A DNA stretch of 64,000 nucleotides from Chitinophaga niabensis. Lineage in GTDB: Bacteria; Bacteroidota; Bacteroidia; Chitinophagales; Chitinophagaceae. A program made the position numbers and the translations under genes. The stretch is from the NCBI RefSeq assembly GCF_039545795.1, contig NZ_CP154260.1, positions 1,059,001 through 1,123,000 of the forward strand, read 5' to 3'. Positions 1,755-36,691 of this stretch are shown piece after piece (the stretch's first letter is position 1; each line of letters opens with the position of its first letter). Below the pieces are notes generated by a model that ran no database searches, was not told the DNA's origin, and worked only from the letters and a program-made list of their open reading frames with translations.

Positions 1755-4700
1755 CTAGAATTTAACATTAATACCGGCAATGAATGTTCTGCTGCGTGGG
1801 TAAGGAGAAGAGTCTACACCAGGCGTTACATAATTGGAATTTTTGGTGCTCACCTCAGGATCAAGACCAGTGTATTTTGTGATAATACCGGCATTGTTTA
1901 CCGTAGCATACACCCGCAGGCTGCTGATCTTTTTCTTTAGCAGGGATTCCACCGGTAAGTTGTATCCAAGTGTTATATTACTGAAGCGGAGGAAAGAGCC
2001 GTCTTCAACAGCCCAGGAATCGAGCAACAGGTAATTGCCTCCTTTGATAGGCTGCCAGATCTTTGCGTCCTTGTTGATGGCACCCAGTACTTCCGGAGAT
2101 GCACCGGCAGGTAATGTTTTGCCAGCTACATTTACTACCCATTGAACAGCATTGCCATTTGCATCTATGGTCTTCCACCGATCGTTCATGATACCGGTAA
2201 GGTTGGAAAAACTGCCTGCATAGGCATTACTGAATTCCACCTTATCGCCATTCAGTATTTTATTTCCATACACAAAGTTGACGAATACACTCAGATCAAA
2301 TCTTTTGTAGGTAAGCTGGTTATTCAAGCCGCCGGTGAATTTTGGTTGTGCACTGCCAAGGATAGTGCGGTCATCTGCATTTACGATGCCATCACCGGTC
2401 CGGTCCTTTAGTTTCTTTGTTCCCGGAGCAGGGATCCCTACGGAGGCTGTATTGTCTGCCACACCTTTCTTCAATACATACGCGCCATTGGCGGGATTGT
2501 AATCAAAATCATTCAGGGTGTACATACCATCAGACTCATAGCCAAAAATAGTACCTACGGGCTGCCCTACCTTTACCAGGTATTCATTACCCGGCCCCCA
2601 GCCGGAGCTGGCAAAGTATTGGTTGGAAACATTGGATAATTTGATGATCTCATTCCGGTTAGTGGAGATATTGAAATTGATGTTCCACTTAAAATCATTA
2701 TTTGAAATGGGCGTTGTGCTCAATTGTAATTCCAGTCCGCGGTTCCGCACGCTGCCTACATTCTGCAATTGTGTGCTGAATCCCGAGTTGGCAGCAATGG
2801 GCACATTGATCAGCAGGTCCCGCACATCATTCAGATAAGCGTCCAGGCTTACCTGGAAAAGGTTATTAAAGAGGCTCACGTCCAATCCTATATTGCGCGA
2901 TAAAGTAGTTTCCCATTTGAGGTTAGGATTCGCCAGGTTAGCAATGGCATAACCCGGGATCAGGGTATTGTTCAGGCTGTAGGGAGTGGCGTTGGACCTG
3001 AACAGGGAAGCGTACAGGAAATCACCGATCCGGTTGTTACCTGCCAGGCCATAGCTCACACGGAGTTTAACATCTGAGGCAAAGTTGTTTTTGTTAAAGA
3101 AATCTTCGTTGGAAATGCGCCAGGCAACAGATGCTGATGGGAAATATCCCCATTGTTTGCCCGGAGCAAACTTTGAAGAGCCATCTGCCCGCAGGTTGAA
3201 TGTGGCCAGGTATTTATTCTTATGCGTATACCCTATCCTGGTAAAGAAGGAAACGATCCTGCTTTTGGCATCTGTGGAAGCAGGGTACAGGGGAGTGGAG
3301 GTACCGAGGCTTAGTTGGGAAAATGCTTTTTGCGGTGTAATACCTACAGGGAAATATCTTACCTGGTCAGTCTGTGAATTGGAAGAAAGCTGGTAGATCT
3401 CCTGACCTATCAGTGCATTGATAGCATTGTTCTTATGAAAATCAGACTTGAATGCGCTGTTGTTAAAGCTCAATACGGCATTCTCGTTAACAGACATCAT
3501 ACTGCTGTTCACGATATTGATGATAGGCTTTCCTGCGCTGTTGGTGATCGCATTCCAGGTTATGTAATCATCGAACGTGTTCAGCTTTCCTTCCGTTTTG
3601 TTGATGCCACCGGTGATGCGTAACGACAGGTATTTAGTGAGTGCGTATTGCAGATAGGAACTGATGGTGGTATTCACAGCACGGTTGCGCCGGTAAGATG
3701 CATTCGAAAATTCGATGGGGTTGATGAGGTAATAGCCTGTGGCATTTGTCTGTGCAAAATAAGCTGCATCGTTTGAAGCGTTGGGATCTTCTGAATTAAC
3801 CAGGAAGGGCCTGTATTTAATGGAATTGCGCAGACGGTTGTTGGTTACATTGCCGGATGCGCTTGTTCCGGGGCCATTGATCTCCTGGTCGTTATAAACC
3901 ACGTTCAGCCCTACTTTGAATTTATCCGAAACGGTGTGATCAAGGCGCAGGTTCAGGAGATTCCTTAAATAGCTGGAATTGATCATTACACTTTTCTCAT
4001 TGTTATTGGTGTAGCTGATGTTGAAAGTGGTGAACTTATCTCCTCCGGTGATGCTCACATTATGGGTTTGAAGAGGAGCATTCTTTCCGAAGGTAAGGTC
4101 CTGCCAGTCTATATGCTGTGCATTCCTGATGGAATCCAGTCCTACCCAGCTGTTGCCATATTGGGAAGTAAAGGCACTGCTGTCAGCCAGGGTATTCCTT
4201 GTTTTTTCCCAGTTGTATTCGATGAACTCTTTCGGGTTCATCACATCAAATTTTTTCGCCAGCTTATTAACTCCATAGAAATAGTTATAGGCCACCACTG
4301 TTTTCATGGGTTTGCCGCCTTTGGTGGTGATAATAACAACCCCGTTAGCTCCCCTGGCCCCGTAGATGGAAGTGGCGGCGGCATCCTTCAATACATCCAC
4401 AGATTCAATATCCTGCGGGGCTATTTTTGAAAGTGCGTCTTCTACCTGGATACCATCTACTACATACAATGGGGTATTATCCTGCGTGATAGAGCCACCA
4501 CCTCTTACTTTGATGGTAACGGCTGCGCCCGGGCCTCCTTCCGTTGTTGAAATATTAACGCCGGCGAGCCTGCCCTGCAATGCCTGCATGGCAGAGCTGA
4601 GCGGAATGTCTTTTATCTGCGAGGCGCTGACGGATGATACAGAACCTGTGAGGTCACGCCGCCGCTGGGTAGCATAACCTATCACTACCACATCGTTCAG

Positions 4701-5045
4701 TTCCTTTGCCTGGTCTGCCAGGGATATATTCAGTACCTGGCCGGCAGTTACCTGCACTTCTTTAGTAGCTAAGTTGATGGCCGAAAACACCAGCGTAGCC
4801 GGCGTTTTCGAGATGCGGATGCGGAAATCGCCACGGATGTCTGTCTGTGAAAAATTGGCCGTACCTTTTTCCGTGACTGTGATTCCCGCCATTGGCTCAC
4901 CTTTTTCGTTGGTAACATGCCCGCTGACGACATTAGCAGCCGGTGGAGGACTGGCTGGCTGTTGAGCAGATGCTGTGATGAAGAGATATTGTATTCCTGC
5001 GGAAACACACAAAACCCGCCAGAACATAGGTAAGAATTTTAACAT
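1755..5045 (-). CDS. SusC/RagA-family TonB-dependent outer-membrane transporter
   Basis: This 1096-residue TonB-dependent transporter imports oligosaccharides across the outer membrane with its SusD partner. Residues 1-28 are a signal peptide ending at SAQ. About 39-120 is a carboxypeptidase-regulatory-like beta domain (SGHVTNEKGEPMAGITV), followed by a TonB-box-like stretch (NDVVVIGYATQ). The plug domain shows the SusC hallmarks PLYVVDGIQ and SIYGARGANGVVIITTKGG, and the rest is the beta-barrel ending in GINVKF. It lacks the STN domain, so it is not of the anti-sigma signalling kind, in agreement with control by the AraC-type regulator of this locus. It is first in its operon, read from the promoter at 5126-5133 beside operator 5161-5201. 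Confidence 0.96.
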   Translation of the reverse strand: MLKFLPMFWRVLCVSAGIQYLFITASAQQPASPPPAANVVSGHVTNEKGEPMAGITVTEKGTANFSQTDIRGDFRIRISKTPATLVFSAINLATKEVQVTAGQVLNISLADQAKELNDVVVIGYATQRRRDLTGSVSSVSASQIKDIPLSSAMQALQGRLAGVNISTTEGGPGAAVTIKVRGGGSITQDNTPLYVVDGIQVEDALSKIAPQDIESVDVLKDAAATSIYGARGANGVVIITTKGGKPMKTVVAYNYFYGVNKLAKKFDVMNPKEFIEYNWEKTRNTLADSSAFTSQYGNSWVGLDSIRNAQHIDWQDLTFGKNAPLQTHNVSITGGDKFTTFNISYTNNNEKSVMINSSYLRNLLNLRLDHTVSDKFKVGLNVVYNDQEINGPGTSASGNVTNNRLRNSIKYRPFLVNSEDPNASNDAAYFAQTNATGYYLINPIEFSNASYRRNRAVNTTISSYLQYALTKYLSLRITGGINKTEGKLNTFDDYITWNAITNSAGKPIINIVNSSMMSVNENAVLSFNNSAFKSDFHKNNAINALIGQEIYQLSSNSQTDQVRYFPVGITPQKAFSQLSLGTSTPLYPASTDAKSRIVSFFTRIGYTHKNKYLATFNLRADGSSKFAPGKQWGYFPSASVAWRISNEDFFNKNNFASDVKLRVSYGLAGNNRIGDFLYASLFRSNATPYSLNNTLIPGYAIANLANPNLKWETTLSRNIGLDVSLFNNLFQVSLDAYLNDVRDLLINVPIAANSGFSTQLQNVGSVRNRGLELQLSTTPISNNDFKWNINFNISTNRNEIIKLSNVSNQYFASSGWGPGNEYLVKVGQPVGTIFGYESDGMYTLNDFDYNPANGAYVLKKGVADNTASVGIPAPGTKKLKDRTGDGIVNADDRTILGSAQPKFTGGLNNQLTYKRFDLSVFVNFVYGNKILNGDKVEFSNAYAGSFSNLTGIMNDRWKTIDANGNAVQWVVNVAGKTLPAGASPEVLGAINKDAKIWQPIKGGNYLLLDSWAVEDGSFLRFSNITLGYNLPVESLLKKKISSLRVYATVNNAGIITKYTGLDPEVSTKNSNYVTPGVDSSPYPRSRTFIAGINVKF

Positions 5046-5125
5046 AACGGAAACCTGTTTATAGTGATGAGGAGTTGGTTTTAGAAATTAGTAATACGTG
5101 GAAATCAACATAAAAGAGTACTCTG

Positions 5126-5133
5126 TAAAAATA
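5126..5133 (-). promoter_or_regulatory. -7 element of the susC promoter
   Basis: On the minus strand this reads TATTTTTA and continues CAGA, close to the Bacteroidota -7 box TAnnTTTG. It lies exactly 27 bp from the operator at 5161-5201, the same distance as at the two other copies. No good -33 box lies at 19-21 bp, which fits an activator-dependent promoter. Transcription would start near 5119, about 75 nt before the susC ATG. Confidence 0.7.
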
Positions 5134-5160
5134 GTGACTCCTTTCAAGGGCGGGAGCGCG

Positions 5161-5201
5161 TTCTTTTATCTTAAAATAGCTGTTTTTTACGCTAAAGCGA
5201 C
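5161..5201 (-). promoter_or_regulatory. PUL operator copy A (41 bp), between susC and the TIM-barrel gene
   Basis: Read on the minus strand it fits the consensus GTCGYTWYAGCGTA, then AAACAG, then ATAAAAGAW, with the spacing of copies B (7327-7367) and C (10305-10345). It matches B at 37 of 41 positions by eye. Inside is an imperfect inverted repeat: the plus strand has TTTTATCTTA at 5164-5173 and TACGCTAAAG at 5188-5197, separated by 14 bp. It sits between two divergent start sites. The local AraC-type regulator (9468-10304) is the obvious candidate to bind it, which is inference. Confidence 0.82.
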
Positions 5202-5230
5202 TTTTGGCAACATTCCCCTGCAGATGTATT

Positions 5231-5238
5231 TACTTTAC
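5231..5238 (+). promoter_or_regulatory. Probable -7 element for the divergent TIM-barrel gene
   Basis: TACTTTAC at this site lies within a block, TGCAGATGTATTTACTTTAC, that recurs with two changes on the minus strand at 7290-7309 before the GH26 gene. In both cases the element lies 29 bp from the outer edge of the 41-bp operator. It is one or two bases off TAnnTTTG. The repeated position is the main evidence. Confidence 0.55.
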
Positions 5239-5312
5239 GAAAGCAAGACAGAGGCTTGCGGAACACTATAATTACCTTGTTGGACCTTATTGCGCATAAA
5301 CACATTTCTACT

Positions 5313-6137
5313 ATGAACAACAATTTTGAGCTCAGGATCATGGCTACCAATTGGGGCTTCCCTGGTACCATCGATGAATTTTGCCATAAAGCAAAAAAGG
5401 AAGGATATGATGGAATTGAAGTCCTGTGGTCCTCCGAAAAGGAAGCACAGGAAGCATTATTTACTGCACTGAAGAAACATCAGCTGGAAGTAGGCATACT
5501 GTGCGCAGGTTTCGACAGCCATTTTCCCAGGCATCTTGAACAGTTTATAATGATGATGGATGAAGCGGCTACTCAAACCATCCAGCGGCCGCTGTATATT
5601 AATTGCCATTCCGGAAGGGATTTTTTCAGCTATGAGCAGAACAAAGCTTTCATTGATCATACCATACAGTTATCCAGGCAAACGGGCATTGATATCTGTC
5701 ATGAAACACATCGTGCAAGGATACTGTATTCCGCACCGACGGCGAGGCATTATATAGATACCATTCCCGGGCTGCGTATTACTTTCGATGTATCGCACTG
5801 GTGTAATGTAAGTGAAACTTTGCTGGAGGATCAGCAGGAAACTGTTGATCTTGCATTGGCACGTGTGGATCATATTCATGCACGCATCGGCCATCCGGAA
5901 GGCCCACAGGTAAATGATCCCAGGGCTCCGGAATGGGAACCGGCACTGAACGCGCATCTCAGCTGGTGGGATAAAGTGGTGGAAGCAAAAAAGAAAGCGG
6001 GTAAAAATCTTACCATACTGACTGAATTTGGCCCGCCCGATTATATGCCTACGCTTCCGTACACACGGGATCCTTTGTCTGATCAATGGGCTATTAATGT
6101 GCATATGATGCAATTGCTGCGGAAACGATATCAGTAA
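5313..6137 (+). CDS. Sugar phosphate isomerase/epimerase family TIM-barrel protein
   Basis: This 274-residue cytoplasmic protein of the xylose-isomerase-like/AP-endonuclease-2 TIM-barrel superfamily probably isomerises or epimerises a sugar released by the PUL. Candidate metal ligands at the usual strand ends are Glu131 (CHETHR), Asp159 (TFDVSHW), the His residues of DHIHARIGH (187/189) and Glu238 (LTEFGPP). An upstream TTG at 5256 would add 19 residues (RNTIITLLD...), but ATG 5313 gives the normal family start, MNNNFELRIMATNWGFPGT, and lies after the likely transcription start. It is divergent from susC across operator A and ends 21 bp from the convergent GH26 gene. The substrate is unknown. 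Confidence 0.85.
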   Translation: MNNNFELRIMATNWGFPGTIDEFCHKAKKEGYDGIEVLWSSEKEAQEALFTALKKHQLEVGILCAGFDSHFPRHLEQFIMMMDEAATQTIQRPLYINCHSGRDFFSYEQNKAFIDHTIQLSRQTGIDICHETHRARILYSAPTARHYIDTIPGLRITFDVSHWCNVSETLLEDQQETVDLALARVDHIHARIGHPEGPQVNDPRAPEWEPALNAHLSWWDKVVEAKKKAGKNLTILTEFGPPDYMPTLPYTRDPLSDQWAINVHMMQLLRKRYQ

Positions 6138-6158
6138 AAGGCAACGCTTGTTTGATAT

Positions 6159-7235
6159 TTAATAGTTGATATCACTGGCCCATGCTACCCAGCTGTGATT
6201 GATGAGGTTGCTGTAATTATTCTTGTACATGGATTTGTAGATCCATCCCAGCTGTGTAGTGTTCCAGTCATGCCAGCAGAGCCAGCCTATCACATTTGGA
6301 TAAGTGGTCCTGATCTTTTCTGCCAGCAGGTTATAGTCGAAAGTGCCGTTCAGGTTTGGATCGCTGTTTCCTCTTACGCCGTGGCCTGTACCAAATTCCG
6401 TGAGCATAATAGGTTTTGCCAGGGTCCTTATCACGCTGTAGTCATTGATCACCATATTATCGGCATATACATCAGCGCCCACAATATCCACGTAACCGGT
6501 ACCAGGGTAATAATTGGTATAGGCGCCGTCTCCCACTACATTGTTGTTGGGTGCATAGATCCAGATAAGGTTATTCAGTTGTTTGGTGGTGGTGAAGTAG
6601 TTGAAAAGATCCGCCCACAATGCTCTGAAGTTTGCATGGTTAGTCGTGTAATACCAGCACCAGCTGCCATTCATTTCGTGGAAAGGCCGGTATAATATGC
6701 TCACGCCGTTTGTCTGAAAGTAAGCCAGTTTCGCCGCCATAGCATCCATGTTGGCTACCCACTGAGTTCTCAGGGAGCCGCCTGGCAGTAATGCACTCAG
6801 GTCGCTTCCGCTGGAAACACCGGGATTATTAAGCCCGCCGCAGATCTCAATGATGCAATCATGCAGCTTGTTGAGGTCTTTTAAAAAAGGGGAATGATAA
6901 TTCCAGTTATCTATATCATTAAAATCAGAGCCCACAATAGCCGGATATTTTCCGGTGGCCTGCGCAAAAGGATGAATGATCTGATCATCTCCCAGTTTAT
7001 ACTGTGTTTTATGGGAGATATTGCTGTTCTGTCCGGCCAGTATCCGTTTACCCGGTTGATTCTTCAGGTTCTGGATGAACCTGAGCAGGGAGTCGGTACT
7101 TTTGTTCAGTTTAGGATTGGCGCCCATGAGCATATTGGCGCGCGAAGCGGGTTCCCGCGTAATTTTATTTTCCTGTTTCGCACAGCTTGAATTAAGCAGC
7201 ACCAATGCAAATAGTTTCAGGATAGTTATTTTCAT
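6159..7235 (-). CDS. GH26-family endo-beta-mannanase-like lipoprotein
   Basis: This 358-residue glycoside hydrolase of family 26 is probably surface-anchored and cuts beta-mannan or a related beta-glycan. The signal peptide ends in LLNSSC, with Cys18 lipidated. The clan GH-A barrel shows the GH26 signature RPFHEMNG with the acid/base Glu187, followed by SWCWY, and the nucleophile region MLTEFGTG with Glu280. It is read away from the neighbouring six-hairpin glycosidase gene through the shared control region around operator B. GH26 also contains beta-1,3-xylanases and lichenases, so mannan is the likeliest but not the only substrate. Confidence 0.9.
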   Translation of the reverse strand: MKITILKLFALVLLNSSCAKQENKITREPASRANMLMGANPKLNKSTDSLLRFIQNLKNQPGKRILAGQNSNISHKTQYKLGDDQIIHPFAQATGKYPAIVGSDFNDIDNWNYHSPFLKDLNKLHDCIIEICGGLNNPGVSSGSDLSALLPGGSLRTQWVANMDAMAAKLAYFQTNGVSILYRPFHEMNGSWCWYYTTNHANFRALWADLFNYFTTTKQLNNLIWIYAPNNNVVGDGAYTNYYPGTGYVDIVGADVYADNMVINDYSVIRTLAKPIMLTEFGTGHGVRGNSDPNLNGTFDYNLLAEKIRTTYPNVIGWLCWHDWNTTQLGWIYKSMYKNNYSNLINHSWVAWASDINY

Positions 7236-7289
7236 AACGTTTAATTTTTAGGTTGACAAAAGCATATCCACAAGCGTTGCCTTGTTATT

Positions 7290-7297
7290 GTAAGGTA
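7290..7297 (-). promoter_or_regulatory. Probable -7 element for the GH26 gene
   Basis: Read on the minus strand this is TACCTTAC, within GTTTACCTTACAA. It is 29 bp from the outer edge of operator B and matches the element before the TIM-barrel gene in sequence and spacing. The leader to the ATG at 7235 would be about 50 nt. Confidence 0.55.
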
Positions 7298-7326
7298 AAC
7301 ACATCTGCATGGGAATATTGGCCGGC

Positions 7327-7367
7327 GTCGTTTTAGCGTAGCAAACAGTTATTTTAAGATAAAAGAA
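7327..7367 (+). promoter_or_regulatory. PUL operator copy B (41 bp), between GH26 and six-hairpin glycosidase genes
   Basis: It fits the same consensus as copies A and C. It contains the cleanest inverted repeat of the three: TTTTAGCGTA at 7331-7340 and TAAGATAAAA at 7355-7364, 14 bp apart. The flanks also match copy A without gaps: 29 of 39 positions on the GH26 side, and the TTGA and TATTTTTACAGA blocks on the other side. The whole region is therefore a mirror image of the susC/TIM-barrel control region. Confidence 0.85.
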
Positions 7368-7394
7368 GAGGTATTCCTCCTTGAGATCAGGGAC

Positions 7395-7402
7395 TATTTT
7401 TA
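7395..7402 (+). promoter_or_regulatory. -7 element of the six-hairpin glycosidase-araC operon
   Basis: TATTTTTA followed by CAGA, identical to the susC promoter over 12 bases and also 27 bp from its operator. The start would be near 7409 with a leader of about 20 nt to the ATG at 7429. An earlier ATG at 7410 meets a stop after one codon, which supports 7429. Confidence 0.7.
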
Positions 7403-7428
7403 CAGAATAATGAATTAATTTCCACCAG

Positions 7429-9465
7429 ATGAAAATACGCTTTCTCATATTCCTGCTTACCTGTTATTGCTCTCAGATCTTTGCCCAGTCCAAATGGAAG
7501 CTGGCGGATTTTGCGGTGGACCTGAACAGCCTGGTTACGCCTCCCGGCCATCTCTGGGTAGGGAGTGGTTTTACCAGTGTAAACCCGGTTTTAAATTCAG
7601 TGTTAGGTGTGGGGGATGTAATGTCGCCGCCTGTTTCAGGCCGAGGGTTCAGGTTTGAAGCCAGGTTTATAGCGAATGGTGATACCATCAGGGATCATTT
7701 TGTATGGGGCAGCAAGGTGAGGAATATCCTTTATACCGGCGGGCAATGGCAGCCGGACAGGATTATACGCAGGGGCACTTATCACCGGATGCACGAACAG
7801 GGGCTTATATCTTTTGAGATCAATTCCCATCTTATTCCATTGGCAGACAGACCGGGCTTTTTAATACGTTATGAGGTAAAGAACAGAACAGCCGTTGCTT
7901 TGAAACTGGATATGATCCCGCTGATCACTAACGGCAGGCCCGCAGTATATCCGCTAAAGGAGTGGGGCTTTATGCCGCCTGCTGATCCAATGAACAATGA
8001 TACGGTGAAAGTAAATGTATTGCAGGAAGGGCAGCGCCTGAGCATAGCCCCGCAGCAAAGCCGTACAGCATATATAGCTGTAGTGTTCAGCAAAGATGCT
8101 GTACCAGCTCCTGAAGGTTTGGCTGCCTGGGAAAAACAAACCGCTGCAATATGGGAAACCCGCCTGGGCTGGGCCTTGAAAAATATCCCCGTTCTTACAA
8201 CTAATAATGCAGCACTCGAAAACTATTATAAAAGATCTGTTGCTTCCGGATTGGTCTGCATCTGGGAAAAACCGGAATTTAAACTGCGGCCGGCTATTGT
8301 TACCAGCGGATTAGATGGAGGTGGTATGAACACCTATCTATGGGATGTTGCCGGATATGCGCCGGGGCTTGTTTCCCTGATGATGGGAGATAAGCTGCTG
8401 GATATTGCACGCACCATGACGGCCATAGACCTGGAACAATATTATGCTTTTGCGCAGGATGGAACCGGCTTGGGTGTAAGATACGCATACAGTACCGCTG
8501 CCTTTACTTCTCTCGTATATGCCATGGCCTGCCAGGACAGCGTTTATCCTGATCTGTTAGAACAGGTGAAAAAGCTGGTGTTGAGCGATGAAAAAAGACC
8601 CATGACAAATGGTGTGATCGATTATGGCGGCCAGCATAATTTACTGGAGATGCGGGGCATGGGCTGGGAACATATGGTGCCAAGTCCAAATGCAGAACGG
8701 GTATGGTGTTTGAGGAGATTAGCGGATATGGGAGAAAAGACCGGTTATGATAAAACGGCCATTGCGCAATGGCGAAAAAAAGCCGATGTTATTGCAGCCG
8801 ATATCAGGCAGGAGCTTTGGGATGAACCGGCTGGATGGTTCTCCTGCAAGTATCCGGACGGGCATAAGGAAATGGTATATTCCATCCAGGTGTTCGATAT
8901 GCTGAGGACTGGTGTATGTACTCCTGCTATGAAGAAAAGAATGCTGGAACAACTGGAAGAAGGCAAATTCCTTTTTCCTTACGGCGTTAGCAGTGTATCC
9001 AAAGCAGATTCCATTCATTATGAAGTAACGGATACCGATTGGGGAGGAGGAGGCGCTTATTCAGGAGATCTTCCTCAACTGGCATTGGACCTTTACCACG
9101 AGAACCTTCCGGGTAAAGCCTGGGATGTATTGCAACGCCAGTTCTGGATGGGCTCGCAACTTCCTTATTTTCCGCAGGAACATTATTGTGACCGCCCCGG
9201 TTCTCCTTCTTTTAAAAGAGCCAATGTTGTTGCCGGATTAATGGGCGCCGCTGCTATCCTGTACGGTATGGCAGGCCTGGAGCCACGTTTGGACGGCAGC
9301 CTATGGATCCATCCAAGACCCACCATCAAAGATACGGTTGCAATAAAAGGTTTTGTTCACCGGAAGCATGTGATAGATGTGGAGTTCTCTGCTTCCTTTT
9401 GTAAGATCACCCTGGACGGTAAAGTGAAGTACCAGGGGAAACCCGGAGTTATAAAGATATTCTGA
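7429..9465 (+). CDS. Secreted six-hairpin glycosidase-like glycoside hydrolase
   Basis: This 678-residue secreted or periplasmic protein has a signal peptide at 1-19 (ending IFAQ), an N-terminal beta-rich domain to about residue 220, and an alpha/alpha barrel of the six-hairpin glycosidase superfamily. Superfamily features include NTYLWDVAGYAPGL near 300, TDTDWGGGGAYSGD near 535 and the closing ANVVAGLMGAAAILYGMAGL with a C-terminal beta cap. The text resembles bacterial trehalase, amylo-glucosidase and GH63/GH78-like enzymes, but I cannot name a family or assign catalytic acids with confidence. The gene is first in an operon with the AraC-type regulator (2 bp gap) and is driven by operator B. 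It probably removes residues from oligosaccharides made by the GH26 enzyme. Confidence 0.75.
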   Translation: MKIRFLIFLLTCYCSQIFAQSKWKLADFAVDLNSLVTPPGHLWVGSGFTSVNPVLNSVLGVGDVMSPPVSGRGFRFEARFIANGDTIRDHFVWGSKVRNILYTGGQWQPDRIIRRGTYHRMHEQGLISFEINSHLIPLADRPGFLIRYEVKNRTAVALKLDMIPLITNGRPAVYPLKEWGFMPPADPMNNDTVKVNVLQEGQRLSIAPQQSRTAYIAVVFSKDAVPAPEGLAAWEKQTAAIWETRLGWALKNIPVLTTNNAALENYYKRSVASGLVCIWEKPEFKLRPAIVTSGLDGGGMNTYLWDVAGYAPGLVSLMMGDKLLDIARTMTAIDLEQYYAFAQDGTGLGVRYAYSTAAFTSLVYAMACQDSVYPDLLEQVKKLVLSDEKRPMTNGVIDYGGQHNLLEMRGMGWEHMVPSPNAERVWCLRRLADMGEKTGYDKTAIAQWRKKADVIAADIRQELWDEPAGWFSCKYPDGHKEMVYSIQVFDMLRTGVCTPAMKKRMLEQLEEGKFLFPYGVSSVSKADSIHYEVTDTDWGGGGAYSGDLPQLALDLYHENLPGKAWDVLQRQFWMGSQLPYFPQEHYCDRPGSPSFKRANVVAGLMGAAAILYGMAGLEPRLDGSLWIHPRPTIKDTVAIKGFVHRKHVIDVEFSASFCKITLDGKVKYQGKPGVIKIF

Positions 9466-9467
9466 TC

Positions 9468-10304
9468 ATGGGCGTCAAGAAATTTCTGTTAAAGAATTTT
9501 ATAAGAGGCGATGAAGTGTTTCACCTGGCAAGGGTTACCATTCATTCCCGTCACGACCTGTCGCTGCACAGGCATGATTTTGCCGAGATCTTCTGGGTGG
9601 AGAGCGGAAGCGGTACCCATTTGGTCAATGGCTGTAAGATCATGCTGGAACCCGGCCACCTGGTGATGATCCGCCCTAATGACCAGCATACGTTCAATGC
9701 GGTCAGAGGAGGCGTTACGCTCATGAACCTCGCTTTTCCAATGGAAACTTTACACCATTTAAGGAACCGCTATTTTGCCGGTGTTGATTCATTTTTCTGG
9801 ACCCGGGATATTGTTCCCTATCAGACACTGCTGGCGGTTTCGTCCATCCGCAGAATTTCTCAGCGGGCAGAAGAGGTGCTGCAGAACCGTAAATCCAGTT
9901 TTTACCTGGATCATTTGCTGTTGTTCATTTTCCGTTTATTGCTGGATAACGATAACCTGTCTGCCGATCAGAAAATACCTGCCTGGCTGAATCATGCCAT
10001 CAGGGGTTATTCCACCCCGGTATTGTTTAAACAGGGTGTACGCGGTTTTGCCGACCTGGCGGAAAGGAATATAGATCATGTGAACAGAACAGTGCAAAGG
10101 ATCCTGCATAAAACATTGACGGACCTGGTAACTGAACTGCGTATGAATTTTGCTTCCAAACAACTCTCCATCACCAACACACCTATCAAAACAATCTGCA
10201 ACGATTGCGGGTTTACCAACCTCGGACATTTTTACAAAACCTTTAAGCAGGTATACCAGCAAACCCCTTCAGCATACAGGAAAAGCAGCCAGACTATTGT
10301 GTAA
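9468..10304 (+). CDS. AraC-family transcriptional regulator with cupin sensing domain
   Basis: This 278-residue cytoplasmic regulator has an N-terminal cupin-like sugar-sensing domain at about 20-95 (LHRHDFAEIFWVESG, GHLVMIRPNDQHTF). A C-terminal AraC DNA-binding domain of two helix-turn-helix units covers about 180-275 (NHVNRTVQRILHKT-like first helix and GFTNLGHFYKTFKQVY, the family signature). It starts 2 bp after the glycosidase stop, so operator B would place it under its own control. It is the only regulator inside the PUL and the likely owner of the three 41-bp operators. Its stop codon abuts operator C. Most Bacteroidota PULs use hybrid two-component or ECF regulators; a one-component AraC protein is less common. 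Confidence 0.9.
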   Translation: MGVKKFLLKNFIRGDEVFHLARVTIHSRHDLSLHRHDFAEIFWVESGSGTHLVNGCKIMLEPGHLVMIRPNDQHTFNAVRGGVTLMNLAFPMETLHHLRNRYFAGVDSFFWTRDIVPYQTLLAVSSIRRISQRAEEVLQNRKSSFYLDHLLLFIFRLLLDNDNLSADQKIPAWLNHAIRGYSTPVLFKQGVRGFADLAERNIDHVNRTVQRILHKTLTDLVTELRMNFASKQLSITNTPIKTICNDCGFTNLGHFYKTFKQVYQQTPSAYRKSSQTIV

Positions 10305-10345
10305 GTCGTTACAGCGTAAAAAACAGCTGCTCAGGAATAAAAGAT
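10305..10345 (+). promoter_or_regulatory. PUL operator copy C (41 bp), before the dioxygenase gene
   Basis: It begins at the base after the araC-type stop codon. GTCGTTACAGCGTA, AAACAG and ATAAAAGAT match the other copies at 30/41 (A) and 28/41 (B) positions, and the half-sites (10309-10318 and 10333-10342) again lie 14 bp apart. The second half-site is weaker. Only the downstream side carries a promoter: upstream is coding sequence and lacks the divergent block seen at A and B. Confidence 0.75.
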
Positions 10346-10372: not shown

Positions 10373-10380
10373 TACATTTA
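10373..10380 (+). promoter_or_regulatory. -7 element of the dioxygenase gene
   Basis: TACATTTA, again exactly 27 bp from the operator as at copies A and B. The start near 10387 would leave a leader of only about 10 nt before the ATG at 10397. Confidence 0.6.
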
Positions 10381-10396
10381 TACCAAAAAATCGGGT

Positions 10397-11155
10397 ATGA
10401 GAACAGCAGAAAACACACGGCTCTCCCTGGAAGAAATTTCCTTTTACAAAAACAATGGATATCTGCTTACAGACAGGCCGTTATTCAGTGAAAAAAAATT
10501 CAAGCGGTTGTTCGATATTTTTGAAGAACACCTGAATAACCGGGGAAACCTGAGGCCGGATGAGCTGGATGTGCCGCACATGAAGGACGCACGTTTGTTT
10601 GAATTTTTAATGGCTCCCGAAATACTGGATATTGTGGAGGGACTAATAGGGCCGGATATAGGATTGTGGAGCAGCCACTTCATCTGCAAAGAACCCCGAA
10701 CAGGGAAGAAAACCCCCTGGCATGAGGACAGTGCCTATTGGAATGGCCGCTTCAACCGTTTTGATAATATTGTTACGCTCTGGCTGGCCATAGATGAATC
10801 TGTAAAAGAGAATGGTTGCATGGGTGTAATTCCCGGATCGCACCATAATGGGTTTTCTGAATACGAAAAAATGGATACAGATCACAGCATCTTTAATATT
10901 GAGATTAAAAAGTCTGCTGTAGATGAAAACCAGGTGGTATGGTTTGAGTTAAAGCAAAATCATTATTCCCTGCATGATTGCCGTATTATTCATGGTGCCA
11001 ATCCCAATACAAGTGATAAAAGAAGGACGGGTTATACTATGCGGTATTTCAATACGGACCTTGTGATGAACCAGCAACATCCGGATAATCTGCATCATAA
11101 AGTATATCATTGCCGTGGGGAGAACAGGGGAAATAATCCGCTGATCTTCCTGTAG
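10397..11155 (+). CDS. Phytanoyl-CoA dioxygenase (PhyH) family Fe(II)/2-oxoglutarate oxygenase
   Basis: This 252-residue cytoplasmic protein belongs to the PhyH non-haem iron oxygenases. The iron-binding facial triad is visible as His109-x-Asp111 (PWHEDSAYW) and His199 (RIIHGANPN), with Arg210 (KRRTGY) as the likely 2-oxoglutarate anchor. Such enzymes hydroxylate small molecules and sometimes O- or N-methyl groups or lipids. It follows the AraC-type gene and carries its own operator copy, so it is expected to be induced with the PUL. Oxidation of a modified sugar or of a sugar-derived acid is one possibility. No sequence feature tells the substrate. Confidence 0.87.
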   Translation: MRTAENTRLSLEEISFYKNNGYLLTDRPLFSEKKFKRLFDIFEEHLNNRGNLRPDELDVPHMKDARLFEFLMAPEILDIVEGLIGPDIGLWSSHFICKEPRTGKKTPWHEDSAYWNGRFNRFDNIVTLWLAIDESVKENGCMGVIPGSHHNGFSEYEKMDTDHSIFNIEIKKSAVDENQVVWFELKQNHYSLHDCRIIHGANPNTSDKRRTGYTMRYFNTDLVMNQQHPDNLHHKVYHCRGENRGNNPLIFL

Positions 11156-13817: not shown

Positions 13818-14459
13818 TTAGCTGAGCAGTCCTAACTTTACGGCATACCTGGTGAGGCCTGCCAGGTTGCGTACCTTTAACTTTAGTATGAGGGTTTTAC
13901 GGTAGCTTTCAATAGTATGTTTGCTTAAAAAGAGCTTATCGGCAATTTCCTGCGTTGTGTACTCCTCCGCAATTAATTTCAGTACATCCTTTTCGCGGGA
14001 GGTGAGCATTTCCAGTGTTTCTTTTTCCTTATTGAAAACACTGTTCATGTAATCCTTTTTGATGGCTTCTGAAAAGTATTTCCCACCTTTCAGGATGGCT
14101 TTGATCGCGGCAAGTAACTCATCTGAATCTGCGTTCTTTGATATATAACCGTCTACGTTCTGCTGAATGAGTGCATCGATCATGTTATTGTCGGTATGCA
14201 TACTTACCACCAGGGTGCTGATCTCCGGCCTTGTTTCCTTGATATGGTTATTCAGCACAATACCGTTCACATCGGGCATACTGATGTCTGTAATCACAAG
14301 ATCAACCTGCTGATCGGGATGCTGGTCCAGGTAATTCATGACGAGTTTGCCATTATGGGCATAATACAGCACATGAAGGTCCGCTTCCTTCTCTATTAGT
14401 TTTATCAGTCCTTCCAGGAACAATTTATGATCGTCTGCCAGGATAATATTATGCTTCAT
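13818..14459 (-). CDS. NarL/LuxR-type response regulator
   Basis: A 213-residue response regulator. The receiver domain (1-125) has the phospho-acceptor Asp58 in LVITDISMPDVNG and acidic Asp9-Asp10. The C-terminal LuxR-type helix-turn-helix (about 147-205) reads LTSREKDVLKLIAEEY and FLSKHTIESYRKTL. Its first codons overlap the last 11 bp of the upstream kinase gene, so the two are a co-translated two-component pair. Target genes cannot be told from this window. Confidence 0.93.
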   Translation of the reverse strand: MKHNIILADDHKLFLEGLIKLIEKEADLHVLYYAHNGKLVMNYLDQHPDQQVDLVITDISMPDVNGIVLNNHIKETRPEISTLVVSMHTDNNMIDALIQQNVDGYISKNADSDELLAAIKAILKGGKYFSEAIKKDYMNSVFNKEKETLEMLTSREKDVLKLIAEEYTTQEIADKLFLSKHTIESYRKTLILKLKVRNLAGLTRYAVKLGLLS

Positions 14460-36446: not shown

Positions 36447-36532
36447 TACCCCAGACGGGAGTCGAACCCGTACGAGCCTTGCAGCTCACAGGATTTTAAG
36501 TCCGGCGTGTCTACCAATTCCACCACCAGGGT
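36447..36532 (-). tRNA. tRNA-Leu (anticodon UAA)
   Basis: 86 nt, read on the minus strand. The D-arm text TGGTGGAATTGGTAGACAC, anticodon loop CTTAAAA with TAA, a long variable arm and the T-loop GGGTTCGACTCCC identify a class II tRNA-Leu. The acceptor stem pairs ACCCTGG with CTGGGGT (two G-U pairs). CCA is not encoded. Confidence 0.93.

Positions 36533-36615: not shown

Positions 36616-36691
<76 letters not shown>

Follow-up and report, generated by a model that had tools for sequence, protein, structure and literature searches.

Activators of the AraC type are usually portrayed as working from a polar site in a single direction, and AraC-type operators within polysaccharide loci are known already. 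In Bacteroides polysaccharide loci, the predicted motifs of AraC-type HTCS regulators are described as direct repeats whose units lie 21 bp apart on average (PMC3878776). In the xylan locus of a marine Vibrio, a single regulator, XylRA, is described as serving five promoters of one locus (PMC12125979).

Here we analyze a polysaccharide locus of Chitinophaga niabensis (assembly GCF_039545795.1, contig NZ_CP154260.1). The window, by which we mean the whole stretch of DNA analyzed, covers positions 1,059,001–1,123,000 of the forward strand (64,000 nt), and the host genome (G000) is a single contig of 7.2 Mb. From left to right, the cluster consists of a GH28-family gene, a susD-like gene, and susC (all on the minus strand); site A; a TIM-barrel gene (plus); a GH26 gene (minus); site B; a glycosidase gene and araC (plus); site C; and a PhyH gene (plus; Table 1). 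With its susC-like gene near GH26 and GH28 genes, the cluster is a predicted SusC/SusD polysaccharide utilization locus. For the glycosidase at 7429–9465, an (alpha/alpha)6 fold is predicted, and none of the solved structures is related to it in sequence; it possibly represents an uncharacterized family. The window also contains two tRNA genes (Rfam), at 36447–36532 and 36619–36691 (minus strand).

Table 1. Genes, predicted operators, candidate promoter boxes, and repeat arms of the cluster, in window coordinates.
Feature	Position	Strand	Remark
GH28-family gene	outside the window, after the susD-like gene	-	family scan
susD-like gene (named from its position and by reading)	from 1742 to beyond the window start	-	ORF directly after susC
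susC-like outer membrane transporter	1755..5045	-	TIGR04056, 818.7 bits
Site A left candidate -7 box, TATTTTTA	5126..5133	-	faces susC-susD-GH28
Inverted-repeat arm 1	5161..5250		90 nt, 81% complementary to 7278-7367
Predicted operator A core, half-sites TTTTAnnnTAAA then TTTTTACGCTAAAGCGAC, period 21 bp	5164..5201	+	
Site A right candidate -7 box, TACTTTAC	5231..5238	+	faces TIM-barrel gene; 29 bp from core
Xylose-isomerase-like TIM-barrel protein	5313..6137	+	no counterpart at this place in G061
GH26 glycosidase	6159..7235	-	solved relatives mainly mannanases
Inverted-repeat arm 2	7278..7367		repeat finder
Site B right candidate -7 box, TACCTTAC	7290..7297	-	faces GH26; 29 bp from core
Predicted operator B core	7327..7364	-	mirror copy of A
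Site B left candidate -7 box, TATTTTTA	7395..7402	+	faces glycosidase-araC pair
Glycosidase or phosphorylase, predicted (alpha/alpha)6 fold	7429..9465	+	araC begins two bases downstream
AraC-family regulator, proposed binder of A, B, and C	9468..10304	+	AraC-type ligand-binding/cupin domain, HTH_18
Predicted operator C core, one-sided	10305..10342	-	directly after araC stop codon, before PhyH; absent from the first-pass annotation
Site C candidate -7 box, TACATTTA	10373..10380	+	faces PhyH; 68-bp distance as at A and B
PhyH-type dioxygenase	10397..11155	+	family models

The regulator has a C-terminal AraC-type helix-turn-helix domain (PF12833, E = 1.9e-17; PF00165, E = 6.3e-11). Its best named models in NCBIfam are ChbR (E = 1.1e-23) and RhaS (E = 1.7e-18). 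It scores 84.1 bits against a curated cut-off of 264 for ChbR and 67 bits against 288 for RhaS, so we filed it under neither.

To examine the distribution of the element, we searched 79 genomes of the genus, including this one (E ≤ 0.01, or E ≤ 1e-30 for the glycosidase). The element was found in three of them, and the cluster's glycosidase was found in the same three. Judging by the TIM-barrel gene (83%), the closest named relative is Chitinophaga sp. SYP-B3965, in which the gene order is identical (L098). The third genome, G061, has the same order minus the TIM-barrel gene, which is missing at this place (L099, 11809–12040), and we found no GH28-type neighbor in the stretch read of G061. Protein identities among the three genomes are 83–90% for the five genes compared, and are about equal for every pair.

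The first-pass annotation of this DNA, which was made from the sequence and its open reading frames, had proposed that the gaps on either side of the TIM-barrel and GH26 genes carry one control region twice, in opposite orientations. It suggested aligning 5120–5245 to the reverse complement of 7285–7410, and this alignment bears the proposal out: 5120–5243 and 7285–7408 match at 93 of 124 positions, with a single offset and no gap. At the second-best offset, 43 of 126 positions match. Among 2,000 dinucleotide-shuffled pairs, taking the best of 41 offsets for each, the mean was 41.8 (sd 2.6) and the maximum was 54. When the 22 gaps in the window were compared in 462 ways, the A/B pair scored 104 and the runner-up, which was the site A gap against the site C gap, scored 33. 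In the list of inverted repeats for the 18-kb locus, A/B comes first (90 nt, 81% complementary), and a second block of 31 nt (81%) lies outside it. The repeat finder puts the A/B pair at the head of its list for all three genomes (90 nt and 81%; 108 nt and 77%; 87 nt and 85%). The cores of A and B agree at 34 of 38 positions; adding the three preceding bases gives the 37 of 41 that had been reported, and the reported box distances of 27 bp and 29 bp fit the core limits used at that time.

The similarity between A and B extends slightly past the candidate promoters: on the left, both have GTGGAAAT, shifted in register by five bases. There is also an inverted pair of GCAACGCTTGT (GCAACGCYTGT), at 6141 on the plus strand, just after the stop codon of the TIM-barrel gene, and at 7280 on the minus strand, in the GH26 leader. 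This pair is also present in G061 (at 10663 and 11835), where one arm comes directly after site A with no TIM-barrel gene in between; we looked for it in SYP-B3965 and did not find it. The inverted pair (6138–6158 and 7266–7284) suggests that the duplication reaches past the promoters and that the TIM-barrel gene sits within one arm. The TTGA block, which is part of the similarity between the two copies in this genome, is also present at site A of SYP-B3965, and is absent from site B of SYP-B3965 and from G061.

The core is built as a direct repeat, and in site A the period of TTTTAnnnTAAAnnnnCT is 21. Direct repeats about two helical turns apart are expected of AraC/XylS-family operators, and the best self-match is at lag 21 both for A and B together (0.51) and for C (0.54). 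Site C retains TTTTA and most of the second half-site, while its middle drifts. When the 7.2-Mb genome was scanned with a pattern for the second half-site, exactly three places matched perfectly. No place matched with a single mismatch, and 20 matched with two, for a total of 23 (versus 63 for the backward control pattern). Because there is no perfect or one-mismatch match beyond these three, the regulon of the predicted operator in this genome appears to be this cluster alone. The earlier picture of two regions that coordinate four transcription units was therefore incomplete: we find three predicted operators and five candidate promoters, and the third operator (C, at PhyH) is one-sided.

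An inverted repeat that flanks about 2 kb could also mark the two termini of a DNA element that moves or inverts, in which case the two regions would have no shared regulatory role. We consider this vanishingly improbable. There is no further full copy in the 7.2 Mb, no recombinase among the nine window proteins that we scanned, and no difference in orientation across the three genomes. Also, the arms are only 77–85% complementary, and the one-sided copy has the same box spacing as the other two.

We also searched for homologs of the AraC protein, scoring up to 31 candidates in each genome. Homologs with E ≤ 1e-20 were found in 15 of the 79 genomes: the three genomes with the cluster; G059, which has a diverged paralogous locus with an AraC protein that is 64% identical; and 11 genomes with a paralog (53–57% identical). 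In all 11 paralogous loci, TTTTTTACGKTATAACGAT lies right behind the araC stop codon, with scores of 19.4–19.6 bits, where the runner-up within each 3.8-kb locus reached at most 11.6 bits. In this clade, the best self-match is at lag 20 (0.51; only 0.38 at lag 21), with box matches of 5/6. We made gene lists for four of the 11 loci. In L105, a GH130 gene (by Pfam) precedes araC and a GH47 gene follows it; the other three listed loci have genes of similar size in the same order. The 11 loci are related, and amount to one conserved block rather than 11 tests. In the 19-kb stretches of two of these loci, the start codon of a short ORF is overlapped by another sequence that matches the second half-site, at 22.5 bits (L105 3455–3492 and L106 3750–3787, both on the minus strand). 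This match may be a chance coding similarity or a further site.

In G059, the genes for araC, another TIM-barrel protein (34%), PhyH (71%), and GH47 follow one another in a row (L142, 5944–10630). There are two putative operators, one behind araC and the other beside the N-terminal remnant of a susC-like gene. The one after araC is weak (12.4 bits, with the next hits in the locus at 11.6 and 11.5). Lag 21 gives the best self-match for site A of G059 (0.48), and is second for site C (0.52, versus 0.54 at lag 18). The G059 locus appears to bridge this cluster and the paralogous loci with GH47 and GH130. The same stretch also has palindromic repeats that are rich in AGCAGAAAGC (L142, 9893–10003 and 11173–11284; 105 nt, 88% mutually complementary) and that resemble small repeat elements.

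The recognition helices appear very similar, by eye, in the two paralogs that we aligned. This ties the predicted motif to the regulator family more closely than its position would. The core might instead be bound by another transcription factor, and there are further regulators nearby, such as a response regulator at 13818–14459. We think that this is quite unlikely: the AraC protein is the only regulator found in the block that is shared with the relatives, and related motifs adjoin 12 diverged AraC homologs, whose neighbors are largely different in the five loci listed. Of the first-pass reading, the AraC protein is supported as the likely regulator, which would bind the core directly.

At A and B, as had been claimed, the core is flanked on both sides by a box with a constant spacing. 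On the left side, a −7 box of the form TAnnTTTR starts 68 bp from the outer half-site (GTCG, read outward) in 8 of the 9 orthologous sites, and at 67 bp in the ninth. Within the range of offsets from 55 to 84, the summed box matches reach 51 at 68 and are 29 or fewer at every other offset. Both operators of G059 also have a full box at 68 (TACTTTTA and TACTTTTG). The background frequency of TAnnTTTR is 0.001 per position in the loci scanned and 0.0025 in the gaps. The orthologous sites share ancestry, so they are not independent tests. By sequence, the left boxes correspond to the TAnnTTTG at −7 of Bacteroidota sigma-A promoters: they agree with the consensus at all six positions and read TAnnTTTA in all nine sites, with A or G accepted at the last position. 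By eye, we saw no consistent TTTG at the distance expected for −33 on either side, which is what we would expect of promoters that need an activator. In Flavobacterium johnsoniae, a TTTG element near −33 is described as not being identifiable (PMC7366714).

On the right side, each of the five sites facing the TIM-barrel gene or GH26 has a TAnnTT 29–30 bp from the core, and this is its sole occurrence within the first 50 bp (the background in gaps is 0.013 per position). These boxes are weaker by hand count, with 4 of 6 consensus positions, or 5 of 6 at site B of G061. None of the six other sites (three copies of site C, two sites in G059, and site A of G061) has a box at 29–30 bp. The three copies of site C and one of the G059 sites run into araC on their right side. 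Site A of G061, which faces the 3' end of GH26, keeps its susC-side box; on its right side there is a full match (TATATTTA) at 24, so the loss of the right promoter at this site is not clean. Site A of G059 counts against a simple rule for right boxes, because a cytochrome-like ORF lies about 120 bp to its right and yet there is no right box.

The operator might activate leftwards only (toward susC, glycosidase-araC, and PhyH), with the right boxes of A and B being independent promoters or relics of the inverted duplication, and with the TIM-barrel gene and GH26 outside its control. This would fit with the stronger left boxes (6/6), which are present at all nine orthologous sites; with the polarity of the direct repeat; with site C and the two G059 sites, where no right box is found at 29–30 bp; and with the box at 24 that site A of G061 retains though no gene starts there. 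On the other hand, in the five sites with the TIM-barrel gene or GH26 on the right, the sole box of the first 50 bp stands at 29–30 bp from the core, within spacers that have otherwise diverged. We consider leftward-only activation to be unlikely, but it deserves to be taken seriously.

Across the six A and B sites, pairwise identities are 87–97% for the 38-bp core, 53–84% for the left flank (box included), and 17–76% for the right flank, where the low values involve site A of G061, with only 12 comparable columns. Outside the core (68 columns), A and B from the same genome are 68% identical, orthologous copies are 56% identical, and unlike copies from different genomes are 51.5% identical. 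For the difference between 68% and 56%, the bootstrap 95% interval is 0.04–0.20, and 0.18% of resamples were at or below zero. A tree that groups the copies by genome beats a tree that groups them by position by 15 log units (AU test, p = 0.049). In the free tree, support is 94% for the G061 pair and only 42% for the SYP-B3965 pair. Some letters are shared within a genome: GGAAnCAGTTTCC is in both SYP-B3965 copies and AGCTACAACA is in both G061 copies. In the C. niabensis genome, the left flank shows no effect (24/38 for A versus B, and 25/38 for A versus site A of SYP-B3965), and the right flank does (28/37 versus 25).

Outside the core, the closer match of A to B inside one genome than between orthologous copies suggests that the two evolve in concert. 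Gene conversion or another homogenizing process would be the simplest reading, which three genomes support moderately. Part of the similarity between the flanks of A and B would then be better read as homogenization within one genome, rather than as functional constraint.

Overall, we think it probable that A and B are two copies of an operator for the cluster's AraC-family activator and that C is a third, one-sided copy, with a dimer that activates the left boxes and, at A and B, the right boxes too. The predicted operators, without further matches in the genome, their fixed spacing to the boxes, and the related motifs beside AraC relatives can all be read directly from the DNA. In the mechanism that we infer from them, an AraC dimer with bound sugar would contact two half-sites, 21 bp apart, on the same face of the DNA. 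The bound protein would assist RNA polymerase at the −7 box that lies some 30 bp beyond the core on its left side, and so turn on susC-susD-GH28, glycosidase-araC, and PhyH. At A and B, it would also assist the weaker box 29–30 bp from the right end, and so turn on the TIM-barrel gene and GH26. Sensing of the sugar would fire all five promoters together; because only two bases separate the glycosidase gene from araC, this would include araC itself, as positive feedback. The ligand may be a mannose-type sugar, as the solved relatives of GH26 are mainly mannanases and relatives of the regulator lie beside GH47 and GH130 genes. GH28 would indicate pectin as an alternative source.

We speculate, more tentatively, that a polar, head-to-tail AraC operator activates RNA polymerase with equal spacing at either end; that the two mirror-image hubs are homogenized by gene conversion, which keeps import, two glycosidases, the regulator, and the sugar-isomerase-like protein tuned alike; and that the right promoter is gained or lost with the gene that it serves. 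We rate this fuller account as possible but doubtful. The two-ended site with matched spacing, together with the one-sided site C and G061, which lacks one of the served genes, could be used to test how activators contact RNA polymerase in Bacteroidota. The mirror copies offer a small case for testing the concerted evolution of short inverted regulatory repeats.

It's useful to compare these sites with known systems. Bidirectional promoters of E. coli, as described in PMC12825309, resemble them in having divergent transcription (predicted, in our case) from one short region. The E. coli promoters are pseudo-symmetrical and engage RNA polymerase either way, whereas here two separate boxes, about 97 bp apart (5133 to 5231), flank an operator with a 38-bp core, so A and B are not of that type. 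The sites also resemble the predicted HTCS operators of Bacteroides, as described in PMC3878776: in both cases, a direct repeat of two sites about 21 bp apart precedes susC/susD and the glycosidase genes of the regulator's own locus. Unlike those regulators, the one here carries a sensor domain of the cupin type, and a Pfam scan showed no hybrid two-component parts in it; its operator is apparently used from both ends and is mirror-duplicated. The arabinan HTCS BT0366 of B. thetaiotaomicron is similar in that one regulator controls several units: according to PMC5061871, BT0366 binds the BT0366/BT0367 intergenic fragment and controls both genes. That control was demonstrated by experiment, unlike the control that we predict here. 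XylRA differs in having a LacI-type sensor domain and in being from another phylum, and its binding was tested there by gel shift (PMC12125979). What is new relative to these systems is that a polar predicted site has matched spacing on both sides, that it exists as a mirror-image pair, and that the two copies show signs of changing in concert.
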